Source: Terriglobia bacterium (GTDB taxonomy: Bacteria; Acidobacteriota; Terriglobia; Terriglobales; Acidobacteriaceae). Taken from it: 64,000 bases of DNA. Positions 37,679 to 46,318 of this stretch are shown here, in pieces. The notes below the pieces were generated by a model. It worked only from the letters and a program-made list of their open reading frames with translations, was not told the origin of the DNA and searched no databases. A program made the position numbers and the translations under genes. How positions within the stretch are numbered: the first letter of the stretch is position 1; every line of letters starts with the position of its first letter. Location: NCBI GenBank assembly GCA_020073645.1, contig JAIQET010000003.1:62001-126000 (forward strand). Reading direction: 5' to 3'.

Positions 37679-39061
37679 ATGGCCCGTACCATCATTGAGC
37701 CCTTCCGCATCAAGAGCGTCGAACCCATTCGCTGGACCACGCGCGAGGAACGCGAGCAACTGCTGCGGGCGGCGCACTACAACCTGTTCCTGTTGCCCGC
37801 GGACGACGTGCTCATTGACCTGTTGACCGATTCCGGCACCGGCGCCATGTCCACCCACCAGTGGGCGGCCATCATGGAAGGCGACGAGAGTTACGCCGGC
37901 AGCCGGAGCTTCGACCGCTTCCGCAACTCTGTCCAGGACATCTTCGGCTACCGCCACGTCATTCCCACGCACCAGGGCCGCGCCGCTGAGCGCATCCTGT
38001 TCAGCGTGATGTGCAAGAAGGGTGACATTGTCCCCAACAACACGCATTTCGACACCACCCGCGCCAACGTCGAATTCGTCGGCGCCGAGGCGGTAGACCT
38101 GGTGATCGAGGAAGGCAAGCATCCCAGCGTAGTGCATCCCTTCAAGGGCAATATGGATGTCGGGGCGCTCGAAACCGTGATCAACCGCGTGGGCCGCGAG
38201 CGCATTCCACTGGTTATGCTCACCGTAACCAACAACTCCGGCGGCGGCCAGCCGGTTTCCATGGAGAATGTGCGTGCGGTCAGTGCCGTGTGCCGGAAGA
38301 ACCGCATCCCGCTCTACTTCGACGCTTGCCGCTTCGCTGAGAACGCCTACTTCATCAAATTGCGAGAAAAGGGATACGAGTCGAAAACTCCCAAGCAGAT
38401 TGCACAGGAGATGTTCAGCTACGGCGACGGTTGCACCATGTCGGCCAAGAAAGACGGTATGGCCAACATCGGCGGCTTCCTCTGCACCAACGACGAACTG
38501 CTTGCCCAGCAGGAAAAGAATCTGTTGATCCTCACCGAGGGCTACCCGACCTACGGAGGCCTCGCCGGGCGCGACCTCGAAGCCGTCGCGGTGGGCGTGC
38601 AGGAGGCGTTGCACGAGGACTACCTCCGCTACCGCATCCACTCCACTGCCTACCTCGGCAACCACATCGCCGAGCATGGCGTGCCCATCGTGCAGCCGCC
38701 GGGCGGACATGCCATTTACCTTGACGCCCGCGCCTTCCTGCCGCACATCCCGCCCGACCAGTTTCCCGGAGTGGCCCTGGCGGCCGAGCTTTACCTCGAA
38801 GGCGGAATTCGCTCCGTCGAAATCGGCACGCTGATGTTCGGCGCCGCCGCCAAGATGGACCTGGTACGCCTGGCCATCCCGCGCCGCGTCTACACCCAGA
38901 GTCACATTGATTATGTCGTCGAAGTGATTCTGGAAGTCTGGAAGAAGCGCGAGCAGATACAGGGACTGAGACTATCGTACGAGGCGCCCTTCCTGCGGCA
39001 TTTCACGGCAAGGCTGGAGCCGGTGGGAGTGCCGATCACCCCTACACTGGCGTCATCCTGA
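37679..39061 (+). CDS. tnaA: Tryptophanase (beta-eliminating lyase)
   Basis: A PLP enzyme of 460 residues converting tryptophan to indole, pyruvate and ammonia. The PLP lysine lies in MSAKKDGMANIGG (Lys257/258), and TNNSGGGQPVSMEN, YFDACRFAENAYFI and PGGHAIYLDARAFLPHIPPD match the family. Tyrosine phenol-lyase is close, but the C-terminal SVEIGTLMFG and LRHFTARLEP patterns favour tryptophanase. AGGAG lies 9 nt before ATG 37679. No TnaC-type leader peptide with the Trp/Pro arrangement was seen upstream. The stop codon lies inside the second copy of a flanking direct repeat. Confidence 0.9.
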   Translation: MARTIIEPFRIKSVEPIRWTTREEREQLLRAAHYNLFLLPADDVLIDLLTDSGTGAMSTHQWAAIMEGDESYAGSRSFDRFRNSVQDIFGYRHVIPTHQGRAAERILFSVMCKKGDIVPNNTHFDTTRANVEFVGAEAVDLVIEEGKHPSVVHPFKGNMDVGALETVINRVGRERIPLVMLTVTNNSGGGQPVSMENVRAVSAVCRKNRIPLYFDACRFAENAYFIKLREKGYESKTPKQIAQEMFSYGDGCTMSAKKDGMANIGGFLCTNDELLAQQEKNLLILTEGYPTYGGLAGRDLEAVAVGVQEALHEDYLRYRIHSTAYLGNHIAEHGVPIVQPPGGHAIYLDARAFLPHIPPDQFPGVALAAELYLEGGIRSVEIGTLMFGAAAKMDLVRLAIPRRVYTQSHIDYVVEVILEVWKKREQIQGLRLSYEAPFLRHFTARLEPVGVPITPTLASS

Positions 39062-39094
39062 GCCGGCTTCAGCCGGTGAAGGATCTGGCGCGCA
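39048..39094 (+). repeat. Direct repeat copy 2 flanking tryptophanase
   Basis: A 47-bp copy of the 37537 element (TGGCGTCATCCTGAG...GAAGGATCTGGCGCGCA) with an inner hairpin CCGGCTTCAGCCGG. It overlaps the last codons of tnaA. Confidence 0.8.
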
Positions 39095-39374
39095 GTGGTT
39101 CAATCTCTCGGGTCGCCCGATCGAGTGTTGCAAATACAAGCCATTGACAATACTGAAATGCATGGCACTGCCTTTCTCCCTCTGAAGGCAGCGACGCCAC
39201 TGTACGCCCGCTTAGCACCAATGACCCCCCCCTCTCACTGGCTTTAGGTTGCTTCATTGACTTCGTAAGCACCTGGGTTTAAAGTAGTTCCGTGGTAGTA
39301 ATCACGGCCGAATCCTTCCGTCACTTCCAGCCATCTGGAGATGTGGTAGCATCTCACGTTCAGGAAATGGAACT
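39062..39374. other. Intergenic region ahead of the DUF2335 gene pair
   Basis: This 313-bp gap is distinctly less GC-rich toward its right half. Besides the flanking repeat it contains a candidate sigma-70 promoter at 39257-39285. No protein or RNA gene is apparent. Confidence 0.5.
39257..39285 (+). promoter_or_regulatory. Candidate sigma-70 promoter for the DUF2335 pair
   Basis: TTGACT (39257-39262) and TAAAGT (39280-39285) are separated by exactly 17 bp. It would give a leader of about 80 nt before the TTG start at 39375. Confidence 0.5.
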
Positions 39375-39647
39375 TTGAATAACGCTAGGTCTACTTTTCT
39401 TTTTGCGATCCCCACATTCATTTCCGGGGCTGCTCGTGTGCTTGACTTGTACGGAGTCTATGATGCGTACAACACGAGCTCCACGGAGTATGAAGCAGAT
39501 TACAAAGCCCTTCTCTCTGACTGGAGAATGGTTGGCGAAGATATTCTGGTTGCCATGAAGACGTTTGAACACTCTCTGCCTCCTGGTAGTGCTACCCGAT
39601 ATGAAGAACTGTGCGGGGCTGGCCAGCAGATGAGTTTCTTCTCGTGA
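39375..39647 (+). CDS. Small conserved protein paired with DUF2335 protein
   Basis: A 90-residue protein, start TTG 39375 with AGGAAATGGAAC just upstream. The pattern RSTFLFAIPTFISGAARVLD, then LYGVYDAYNTSSTEYEADYK and LLSDWRMVGEDILVAMKTFE, recalls a family of uncharacterised 75-95-residue bacterial proteins usually found beside a small membrane protein. No known catalytic or DNA-binding motif. Its stop overlaps the next start (GTGA). Base composition is lower in GC than neighbouring genes, consistent with horizontal transfer. Confidence 0.72.
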   Translation: MNNARSTFLFAIPTFISGAARVLDLYGVYDAYNTSSTEYEADYKALLSDWRMVGEDILVAMKTFEHSLPPGSATRYEELCGAGQQMSFFS

Positions 39648-40102
39648 GTCCAGAAGAAAGACGACGCGAGGCAGCAGCCATAAGGGAAGCTGCCATCGAA
39701 ATCTCGCGCTATCATTCTGGCCCCCTGCCACCGCCTGAAGACCTAGCTAAATACGAGCAGATTCTTGCCGGAGCGGCTGACCGCATAATCCGCATGGCAG
39801 AGCAACAGTCTACGCACCGTCAACACTTAGAAAAGGTTGCCATAGAATCAAATGCCTCGACCCAAAAGTGGGGTCTTGTCTGTGCGTTCATTATTGCAAT
39901 GAGTGCCATCTGGGGCGGAATTTGGCTATCACTAAAGGGCATGAGCGGCGCAGGGTTGGCTACGATAATCGGCGCTCTCGTTGCTCTCGTAGCGGTATTT
40001 GTTTATGGGAAATCGGGCCAGAAAAAAGAACTCCAGAAAAAAGCGGAAGAACTCATGCCAATTCACGACTCGCCGTCTACCCCTTCATCAACCCACTCTT
40101 AG
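39644..40102 (+). CDS. DUF2335-type membrane protein
   Basis: A 152-residue protein starting at GTG 39644, overlapping the upstream stop by 4 nt. The cytoplasmic part contains GPLPPPEDLAKYEQILAGAA and DRIIRMAEQQSTHRQHLEK, the hallmark of DUF2335. Two helices follow (WGLVCAFIIAMSAIWGGIWL, GLATIIGALVALVAVFVYGK), then a charged tail. Translational coupling implies the two proteins form a complex at fixed ratio. Such membrane-effector-plus-small-partner layouts occur in toxin-antitoxin or phage defence modules, but no function is established. Confidence 0.82.
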   Translation: MSPEERRREAAAIREAAIEISRYHSGPLPPPEDLAKYEQILAGAADRIIRMAEQQSTHRQHLEKVAIESNASTQKWGLVCAFIIAMSAIWGGIWLSLKGMSGAGLATIIGALVALVAVFVYGKSGQKKELQKKAEELMPIHDSPSTPSSTHS

Positions 40103-40209
40103 GACACTACCCGATCCTGCCACCCCGCGATTGCCTGCCTTCCCCAGTGCTACAATTATGTGTTTCGTACCCATCCAACGCAGCATCGATATTTCTTTGA
40201 GGTGCACTT

Positions 40210-44210: not shown

Positions 44211-44453
44211 GTGCCACACAAGAAAACTCGGAGGAATCTGCGAGTCCTATTTGGAACGCGAATACGGGATCTGCGCCTCAGTGCGAAGCTGACGCAAGAG
44301 CAATTCGCGGAAAAAGCAAAGATCTCGGTCGATTTCTTGAGCCTGATTGAACGGGGTCGTAATTCCCCATCCTTCGAAAACATCGAGAACCTCGCGCGTG
44401 CGCTTGGGCTTCCTGTGGCTGACCTCTTTAGTTTTGAGGAGAACGACCAGTGA
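44211..44453 (+). CDS. XRE-family regulator, probable restriction-modification controller (C) protein
   Basis: An 80-residue helix-turn-helix protein: FGTRIRDLRLSAKLTQEQFA, EKAKISVDFLSLIERGRNSP, then FENIENLARALGLPVADLF, the standard size and pattern of C proteins. Start GTG 44211. It overlaps the endonuclease start by 4 nt (ATGA), so C and R are co-translated, which is the usual C-R arrangement delaying restriction until methylation is established. Confidence 0.87.
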   Translation: MPHKKTRRNLRVLFGTRIRDLRLSAKLTQEQFAEKAKISVDFLSLIERGRNSPSFENIENLARALGLPVADLFSFEENDQ

Positions 44454-45277
44454 AGCTCAACAATACCTATTTGCTATTCGATTCCAAACAAACCTCAAAG
44501 CGCGACGACTGGGCGGAAGCACACGGGGCAATATTGAATGCCATAAAATCGATGAGGTGGCCGGACGAAGAAGGCGCGCATACCTTCCGCATTCCGAGAA
44601 TCGTTACTGTCAAGCCCGGTGCAAAGTACATCGGTGCAGACGGGAAGGCTAAGACCGCGAAGGAGAAGAAGACTCTCCGGAACGGCGTAAGACCTCTACG
44701 CGACCAGTTCCGACGCTGGATGCAGAAGGAGGCTTGGACGTGTGAAGAATCGTGCAGCCTCGCACCATTCTTTAAGGGGCTGAGAGAAAGCAGCACAGCG
44801 GTCTTCACCAAGTTCCCGCCGCCTACCCAGAAGGAACTTGAAGAAGCCAAAGCAGAAGCGCTAAACGAAAGTGTAGGCGACTTTGATTTTTGGTTTCGAA
44901 CGACGTCGAACTTTAGGACCGTCGTGGAGTGGGAAACGGGCAACATCTCCTCCTCGCATCGTTCGCTAAACAAGATGTGTCTCGCGCTTATGGGAGGACT
45001 TGTCGACGCAGGTGTGCTTATCGTCCCGTCGAAGTTCCTGTATCCGCACCTCACGGATCGCATAGGGAACATCCGCGAACTCCAGCCATACTTCTACTTC
45101 TGGAACCGAGTTGGGACGCTCGTTGATTGCGGCTTGCTGGCGGTCATGGAAGTTGAATACGACGCACTTTTCAAGAGCACTGATCTACGTGATTTCGTTT
45201 CGATGGGAACCGACGGCAACAGTAAGACGGGTCCGACACCGAGGCGAGTAACAACCAAATCAGCGAAAAAGCGGTAA
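44450..45277 (+). CDS. BamHI-like type II restriction endonuclease
   Basis: A 275-residue enzyme. The core VVEWETGNISSSHRSLNKMC closely follows the BamHI active-site strand and helix (EFETGNISSAHRSMNK); Glu160 and Glu162 match BamHI Glu111 and Glu113, with Asp144 or Asp146 in VGDFDFWF standing for Asp94. Further matches are NGVRPLRDQF, PSKFLYPHLTDRIGNIRELQ with PYF, and MGTDGNSK. These alignments are from memory of the BamHI protein. Overall it is longer than BamHI (213 residues) with a variable insert around residues 50-75. Recognition of GGATCC is plausible, not shown. It overlaps the convergent methylase gene by 18 nt. Confidence 0.88.
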   Translation: MKLNNTYLLFDSKQTSKRDDWAEAHGAILNAIKSMRWPDEEGAHTFRIPRIVTVKPGAKYIGADGKAKTAKEKKTLRNGVRPLRDQFRRWMQKEAWTCEESCSLAPFFKGLRESSTAVFTKFPPPTQKELEEAKAEALNESVGDFDFWFRTTSNFRTVVEWETGNISSSHRSLNKMCLALMGGLVDAGVLIVPSKFLYPHLTDRIGNIRELQPYFYFWNRVGTLVDCGLLAVMEVEYDALFKSTDLRDFVSMGTDGNSKTGPTPRRVTTKSAKKR

Positions 45278-46120
45278 GTTTCTTACCCCTTGATCCTCCA
45301 AGGGAAGGCGAGTCTTAGATGTGCTACGCCATTTTGGATGACAACCGTTATCGAGGTCCGTCAAACGTCTAATCGCTGCGGAGACGGTGTTTAAGTCGGC
45401 ACATAGCCAGCGACGGTTGAGGCGCTCCGCGACGAGGGCAGTGGTGCCGCCTCCGACGAATGGGTCGCAAATAACATCTTCTTCGCGGGTCGTGAGAAGT
45501 ATCACCCTTTCGAGGATCTGCGGCGCAAGTTCGTTGGGTGTTCTGTATTTATATTTCCGGTGTCGAACAGGTGGAATGTCGTCCCAAACGTCACTCAGGT
45601 TCAACCCCTTGGGGTTTAAGTACTTCCTGTGCCCTCCATAATCCTTAATATCTCTGCCACAGTGACGACATACGGCAATAGGAATTCGGACAGCGTCTCT
45701 GTCAAAGACGCGCGGTTTTTCACCCTTGATGTAGTACAGCATCCCGTAATGGCTGGGGGAGAGACGGTTCGGTATAGGTAAACTGTGAGCTTTGTCGATG
45801 GCAATCCAGTGCTTGAACGAGAGCGCAGCCTTCGAATTGAGATGGTTCCCGTATGATATCAACCACTTCGGGAGATTGTAGACGAATAGCGCACCACCAG
45901 GGCCGAGGACACGAACGGCTTCGTCAAGCCAAGCGTAGCTCCACGTAAGGTACTGGGCGTCCGAGATGCTGTCCGATCCCTTCCTGCCGTACTTTTTGCC
46001 CAAATTAAACGGCGGATCGGCGAAGAAGGTGTGGACCGTCCCTGAATCTATGCTCTTGAGAAACTCCAGGCAATCGGCTTCATAAAGCTGCCCAAGCGAG
46101 GTTGTGTGTGCCAATCTCAT
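45260..46120 (-). CDS. DNA methyltransferase (N4-cytosine or N6-adenine, beta order)
   Basis: A 286-residue methylase. Catalytic motif IV is ADPPFNLGKKYG near the N-terminus and SAM-binding motif I is CDPFVGGGTTALVAERLNRR near the C-terminus, giving the beta-class order. A Cys/His cluster (CRHCGRDIKDYGGHRK) in the middle looks like a small metal-binding knuckle in the target-recognition region. I used ATG 46120; a TTG at 46159 would add 13 residues. It is convergent with the C-R operon and almost certainly protects the same site. Confidence 0.9.
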   Translation of the reverse strand: MRLAHTTSLGQLYEADCLEFLKSIDSGTVHTFFADPPFNLGKKYGRKGSDSISDAQYLTWSYAWLDEAVRVLGPGGALFVYNLPKWLISYGNHLNSKAALSFKHWIAIDKAHSLPIPNRLSPSHYGMLYYIKGEKPRVFDRDAVRIPIAVCRHCGRDIKDYGGHRKYLNPKGLNLSDVWDDIPPVRHRKYKYRTPNELAPQILERVILLTTREEDVICDPFVGGGTTALVAERLNRRWLCADLNTVSAAIRRLTDLDNGCHPKWRSTSKTRLPLEDQGVRNLPLFR

Positions 46121-46318
46121 ACACGTAACCACATTACGGGAAACTTTTTGGGGTTGCAAGCAGATTCTACACGAGCCGCTGGTCTTTTCATTCCCATCTT
46201 GGCGGGCGGTACGCTCTTCATTATAGGTCAGGAAACGTGGCGTGGTGTGTGCTTCGCGGCTCTTGCGAAGGACGGGGTGGGTGTCGCCTGGTGCGACACA
46301 GACATGTGACGGACGTCC

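Follow-up and report, generated by a model that had tools for sequence, protein, structure and literature searches.

Toxin-antitoxin pairs with a membrane toxin are compact, mobile units in which the small gene comes first and overlaps its neighbor, and SLATT is a two-helix membrane effector of conflict systems. Systems of the RexAB type have been described in phage lambda (RexAB), in Pseudomonas putida (PP_5643-5644) and in mycobacteriophage Sbash (gp30/gp31); in the portions of the sources that deal with them, DNA binding is ascribed to RexA and to its counterpart in P. putida (PMC12894663, PMC6426596).

DUF2335 is named in the searched literature in a table of T6SS effectors and in connection with a Dickeya zeae mutant, and the portions of these sources that name it give no mechanism. 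The table entry reads 'DUF2335 (phospholipase)' (PMC6267618) and, going by that part of the source, is probably a slip for DUF2235. Deletion of the DUF2335 gene of D. zeae MS2, as the relevant part of the report describes it, left the bacterium viable and lowered maceration of potato (PMC8809351). The literature searched contains no description of DUF2335 paired with a small partner and no functional data on such a pair. Pseudomonas phage Fc02 has two exclusion genes that overlap; these were considered and rejected, being, in the part of the source that presents them, other genes than this pair (PMC9936078).

A presence/absence cassette of two overlapping genes

The pair described here lies in a window (the whole stretch of DNA that was analyzed, 64,000 nucleotides) and is accompanied by the following features.

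39032..40116, no strand assigned: 1085-bp segment comprising the pair and ~340 bp upstream of it; 141 unrelated bp are present instead in genome G339
39257..39285, + strand: promoter-like site TTGACT-17-TAAAGT, a 9/12 match not above chance
39375..39647, + strand: gene 1 (ORF1), encoding the small partner protein of 90 aa, with a TTG start and no convincing curated family
39519..39554, + strand: small-partner signature DWRMVGEDILVA, residues 49-60, with the D-aromatic-x2-V-G-x-D-x3-A pattern that recurs in viral DUF2335 partners
39644..40102, + strand: gene 2 (ORF2), encoding the DUF2335 protein of 152 aa, with a GTG start in a GTGA overlap with the gene 1 stop
39728..39865, + strand: PF10097 domain, residues 29-74, preceding the membrane helices and containing HRQHLE
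39866..40021, + strand: predicted transmembrane hairpin, approximately residues 75-126, from hydropathy and the structure model, followed by a basic C-terminal tail

An earlier note on this DNA had described two open reading frames that overlap by GTGA and start from TTG and GTG, and coordinates and strand agree with that description. The TTG at 39375 is the first start codon available in the small-gene frame, while the DUF2335 frame has, besides the GTG at 39644, a second in-frame GTG at 39611. The composition of the pair also differs from that of its neighbors, as had been claimed, with a GC content of 0.51-0.53 compared to 0.58-0.66 in most flanking intervals. The proposed promoter of the pair, with its 17-bp spacer, fared less well: two such 9/12 sites were observed compared to 1.0 +/- 0.9 in shuffled sequences, and since this frequency is not above chance, the site was rejected as a sign of an independent unit. 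No known non-coding RNA in Rfam was matched within or upstream of the pair.

The segment at 39032..40116 is a presence/absence cassette of ~1.1 kb. In G339, which belongs to the same genus, the site is flanked by the same two genes, for a lyase (98% identical) and an aldehyde dehydrogenase, and the genome has no DUF2335 match. Of 16 relatives possessing the lyase, one (G318) has a DUF2335 match, with the partner in front, and the source genome itself contains one DUF2335 match in total. There are no direct repeats of 12 nt or longer at the cassette edges. The window also contains, ~4 kb away from the pair and separated from it by housekeeping genes, a BamHI-type restriction-modification locus (44211-46159), which is lower in GC too and consists of an HTH controller-like protein, a BamHI-family endonuclease (PF02923, E 7.3e-25) and a convergent N4/N6 methyltransferase.

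The DUF2335 protein and its small partner

ORF2 belongs to DUF2335 (PF10097) with a score of 58.6 bits, compared to a Pfam cut-off of 25 (E 5.8e-16), and among the PHROGs it matches phrog_3996, annotated as 'membrane protein, moron' (E 2.4e-35). Hydropathy analysis identifies two hydrophobic segments (19-residue windows that begin at positions 75-79 and at 97-108), and the HRQHLE motif corresponds to residues 58-63; the earlier description of a DUF2335 protein with two membrane helices and this motif is thus borne out. The structure model consists of four helices, long and with a hairpin (mean pLDDT 85). PF10097 was matched in 23 of 25 aligned DUF2335 relatives at E<=0.5. Comparison of the model to solved folds yielded a best Z of 3.9 among the 19 PDB chains aligned and nothing at E<=0.001 with Foldseek; two matches at E<=0.001 are found in BFVD. 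Because there is no good solved-fold match to the model, a pore or channel activity for DUF2335 would be a guess. A clade comprising L034 and L047 (along with L043, for the small gene only) has DUF2335 proteins that lack GPxPxP and retain HR..E, the hairpin and the small partner.

None of Pfam, PADLOC, NCBIfam and PHROGs yields a convincing match for the small protein, in keeping with its earlier assignment to an uncharacterized family, and among 33 of its relatives the best Pfam match is DUF1419 at 0.0041. Within the phylum, eight of 297 genomes contain homologues of ORF1, the source genome among them. Nine columns are invariant among 33 aligned small proteins (P13, G18, A20, D24, G27, D30, Y32, D42 and D49), and in the structure model (mean pLDDT 72) a single confident helix, residues 38-67, carries the signature, the rest being weak. 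PHROGs splits the partners among phrog_26284, 27385, 29944, 10654 and 23666, each of which is annotated as function-unknown. The small protein had also been called soluble, and may be so: the hydropathy of ORF1 peaks at 1.38 in a 19-residue window, and its whole clade of 33 stays below 1.6, under the usual membrane cut-off. However, 20 of 70 viral small partners have a hydrophobic N-terminal stretch (>1.6 over 15 residues). In several viral partners, including L088, L087 and L094, the N-terminus is basic as well as hydrophobic, resembling a signal peptide or membrane anchor. Such N-termini complicate the assignment of a cytoplasmic sensor role to the small protein.

The pairing of the two genes was analyzed from both directions. 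For viral loci, 120 of the at least 120 IMG/VR stretches with a DUF2335 pattern were taken, yielding 95 non-redundant loci by a simple 90% identity filter over the last 100 residues; nine with less than 250 nt upstream of DUF2335 were dropped, leaving 86. The pattern matches once in the window and in none of 100 shuffles, and a version with the spacer one base short gave one match. A strict motif is present in the small ORF at the DUF2335 start in 67 of the 86 loci, compared to four of 756 other ORFs of at least 200 aa within the same loci, but this motif was written after inspection of viral sequences and the count is circular; one further comparison of the signature similarly rested on a motif-chosen sequence set. 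The analysis was consequently repeated with a motif-free profile from the window clade. At E<=0.01 it matched an ORF that terminates close to the DUF2335 start in 58 of 86 loci; relaxing the threshold to E<=0.1 raised this to 71, and no control ORF was matched (0/831). An iterated profile, trained on viral partners of which some are close to named phages, found the partner in 83 of 86 loci, again compared to 0/831 control ORFs; the three loci missed (L126, L139 and L166) have a degenerate motif by eye. The small partner family is defined here by an ORF at the DUF2335 start with profile homology and the D-aromatic-x2-V-G-x-D signature, and ORF1 belongs to it.

The iterated profile likewise recognized a partner ORF in all 14 named phage and plasmid loci, with E<=0.01 in 13 of them and 0.18 in Streptococcus phage Javan433. 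Klebsiella phages RAH1 (L066) and BUCT711 (L067) and the Azospirillum plasmid AZO_p4 (L071) had appeared to be exceptions with other annotated ORFs upstream; this was rejected when the partner frame was found to be present and unannotated. As a consequence, neighborhood counts based on annotated genes underestimate the pairing. Within the phylum, DUF2335 occurs at 14 places in 13 of 297 genomes, and inspection or a profile match clearly identifies the partner at 13, L063 aside. DUF2335 thus lacks a recognized partner in at most three of 86 viral and one of 14 genomic loci. The earlier note had proposed tight pairing, and had held that DUF2335 homologues occurring mostly without the small partner would speak against its reading; what was found is the reverse, and the pairing extends more widely than claimed.

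Starting instead from the small gene, DUF2335 is the next gene in seven of eight phylum genomes, the window included, with L013 as the exception. A degenerate DNA pattern for the small gene detected 31 stretches in the genome_contigs set and four in viral_contigs, of which L021 and L040 matched the pattern but contained no small gene and were dropped. DUF2335 lies downstream in 29 of the remaining 33 loci. It is missing in L025, L037 and L043, and L019, where the protein is the same as in L037, is at a contig edge. At the potC-int site of Escherichia coli A8 (L257, 4077-4896), the small gene is retained and an opposite-strand gene encoding an ORF6N domain replaces DUF2335.

The small gene can thus occur without DUF2335 (L013, L025, L037 and L043), and in L012, L022, L027, L031 and L057 it is open while the DUF2335 frame is broken or shortened, as would be expected if the second gene were costly. 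Together with the gene order, small then membrane, and the overlap, these losses favor an addiction system that would pair a membrane toxin, DUF2335, with an antitoxin encoded upstream of it, the small protein, and would stabilize prophages or mobile DNA rather than act against phages. However, the asymmetry is weak and was rejected as proof of a toxin: Fisher's test, in which the small-gene count of 31/36 leaves out the window, gives P 0.016 if one of 100 DUF2335 genes is taken as unpartnered and 0.20 if four are. The broken frames occur in draft genomes and may reflect either decay of a costly gene or assembly errors, and neither ORF1 nor ORF2 matches a toxin or antitoxin family. The viable D. 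zeae deletion, as far as that part of the report goes, does not bear on toxicity (PMC8809351). A toxin-antitoxin function is unlikely but a serious rival, ranking second after the RexAB-like reading discussed below.

Across 25 pairs, evolutionary distance in one protein correlates with that in the other (r 0.67, with none of 5000 permutations as high). In both genes, dN is lower than dS for the ZX5-type and STEC-type E. coli pairs and for L045/L046, and the same is true of the small genes of L022/L032; the comparison was not computable for L034/L047. As judged from sequence, the two genes form one unit, overlapping and inherited together.

Distribution in phages, prophages and chromosomes

Beyond the IMG/VR stretches, DUF2335 is matched in 20 annotated phage records and 11 plasmid records, and is found in Leptospira, Staphylococcus, Streptococcus and Pseudomonas phages. 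That the hosts include both Gram-negative and Gram-positive bacteria fits a target at the inner membrane. In E. coli, one type of prophage DUF2335 is present in 209 of 5426 genomes and another in 69, and the pair is located between potC and int, beside yfhH at a prophage edge, or inside a prophage. It adjoins an integrase gene or attP in Pseudomonas phage MD8 and in Staphylococcus phages E72 and IME1365_01, follows the lysin gene near the genome end in Javan433, and is followed ~4 kb away by the portal gene in Leptospira phage LE1.

The positions were compared in unique proviruses of isolate genomes on contigs of at least 20 kb. The pair is within 2.5 kb of an end in 14 of 37, compared to 4.7 expected (simulated P 0.0002), and is away from the ends in the remaining 23. 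In 64 of 73 cases the pair has a lower GC content than the remainder of its locus, with a median difference of -3.9 points. Among the Pfam matches listed for 150 nearest neighbors (150 of 161 were entered) are nine Phage_integrase, seven HTH_3, five Peptidase_S24 and four Amidase_2 domains. In its position near an end or near int/attP, its deviating GC and its presence or absence among relatives, the pair has the properties of a moron. Many temperate phages carry it as an accessory module, often near the prophage attachment end, and in bacterial chromosomes it occurs as a stand-alone cassette too.

Proximity to prophage ends and lysogeny neighbors would also be consistent with superinfection exclusion at the step of DNA entry, in which both proteins would form an inner-membrane barrier to genome injection and no cell death would ensue. 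This reading also suits a membrane protein whose partner, in some phages, is membrane-prone too, but stand-alone chromosomal cassettes amid housekeeping genes are less typical of such systems, and it appears less probable than a toxin-antitoxin function.

A role in lysogenic conversion, benefiting host fitness or colonization rather than aimed at phages, draws on the reduced maceration of potato upon loss of DUF2335 in D. zeae MS2, the sole mutant phenotype found and one known from part of a single report (PMC8809351). It is difficult to reconcile with a range of hosts (soil and groundwater Acidobacteriota, Leptospira, Staphylococcus, Streptococcus and enterobacteria) that have no niche in common, and is more doubtful still.

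The neighborhood of some phage copies, which come after endolysin genes, and the amidases among the neighbors raise the question of an accessory role in lysis, as a holin, antiholin or spanin-like pair. Similarity points weakly in the same direction, with holin-type Pfam matches at E 0.07-0.09 (Phage_holin_10 in two of 25 relatives, best 0.092) and a match to the Rz-like spanin family phrog_1026 at 0.0016 that extends across a 35-residue stretch. However, phages E72 and Javan433 possess their own annotated holin genes, chromosomal copies are mostly amid housekeeping genes, and the pair often adjoins an integrase or attP. This role is very improbable, the least probable of those considered.

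The earlier note had suggested neighborhood statistics in defense islands as a check. With PADLOC at E<=1e-10, the neighbors of chromosomal pairs (142 proteins from 37 loci) match 56 models, and those in control regions (134 proteins from 20 regions) match 27, but in both sets each model among the matches listed (25 per set) corresponds to a single protein. The models near pairs repeat a few proteins, namely type I specificity and methyltransferase subunits and a UvrD-like helicase, and those in the controls DpdF and a few others. The sample is small and from draft genomes, comprising the nearest four ORFs per locus (142 of 214 neighbor ORFs) and 134 of 153 control ORFs. By Pfam, neighbors of the chromosomal pairs are mostly housekeeping genes among the matches listed. 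The idea that chromosomal copies reside in defense islands was rejected given these neighbors and the lack of enrichment. In L010, L013 and L047, the small gene is beside or between type I restriction genes (hsdM/hsdS-like), which does not amount to enrichment. In PADLOC-DB 2.0.0, ORF1 has zero matches, ORF2 has just two, to LeoBC at 0.0034 and to a TIR effector model at 0.015, in its helical and membrane part, and seven related proteins yielded one match, at 0.002.

A possible exclusion module and its relation to known systems

The reading that is tentatively favored, although it falls a little short of probable, is that of a two-component exclusion or abortive module, like RexAB but unrelated to it, in which the small partner controls a membrane effector directed against competing phages. 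DUF2335 would form a hairpin in the inner membrane, oriented such that the N-terminal PF10097 domain and the C-terminal tail both face the cytoplasm. The helix of the small protein that carries D-W-x2-V-G-x-D could bind this cytoplasmic part, and the small protein would either keep DUF2335 quiet or sense infection. Upon entry of a competing phage, DUF2335 would assemble or open and disturb the membrane, which would abort the infection or keep out the incoming DNA. The small protein would thus be comparable to lambda RexA, as the sensor, and DUF2335 to RexB, as the membrane effector, without homology.

A defense function fits the location near prophage ends, the low GC and the lysogeny-gene neighbors, and in these respects the earlier designation of the pair as a candidate defense or toxin-antitoxin module stands; it does not extend to defense islands or to a match with a defense model. 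Several observations count against the RexAB-like reading: defense genes are not enriched near chromosomal copies and no PADLOC match is convincing, the phenotype of the D. zeae deletion is not one that a defense function predicts, and the pair is away from the ends in a majority of the proviruses.

It may also be, though this too should be held lightly, that DUF2335 and its small partner constitute one old and widespread class of prophage-borne membrane defense or exclusion modules, unrelated to RexAB, of which the first half has gone unannotated. The first half would have escaped annotation because it is tiny and fast-evolving, and is split over many small families or not called at all. The pairs constitute a large, unrecognized family carried by prophages of many bacteria, and a near-constant partner changes how DUF2335 should be tested, as a DUF2335 gene cloned without it could prove toxic or lack activity and go unnoticed in screens. 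Some of the pairs come from phages that are easy to work with in the laboratory.

Among known systems, the two-helix effectors of conflict systems (SLATT and CyanoTRADDas_TM) share the two-helix membrane architecture, but the pair is not accompanied by a nucleotide-signal enzyme or NTPase, and CyanoTRADDas_TM is matched weakly and non-significantly in two of 25 DUF2335 proteins (best E 0.016). Toxin-antitoxin pairs are alike in gene order, overlap, compactness and mobility, but none of their families is matched. The RexAB-type systems are the best functional analogue: as presented in the relevant portions of the sources, they too are prophage-borne two-gene units that combine a non-membrane partner with a membrane protein (PMC12894663, PMC6426596). 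Their membrane proteins, in those portions, have four predicted helices, whereas DUF2335 has two by hydropathy and model, and RexA and Sbash gp30 contain a DUF4747 motif, whereas ORF1 and 33 relatives have no Pfam match to DUF4747. Finally, the second gene is a clear member of PF10097 and phrog_3996, whose entry lines mention no partner gene, and it is the near-obligate small partner of DUF2335 that is new here.
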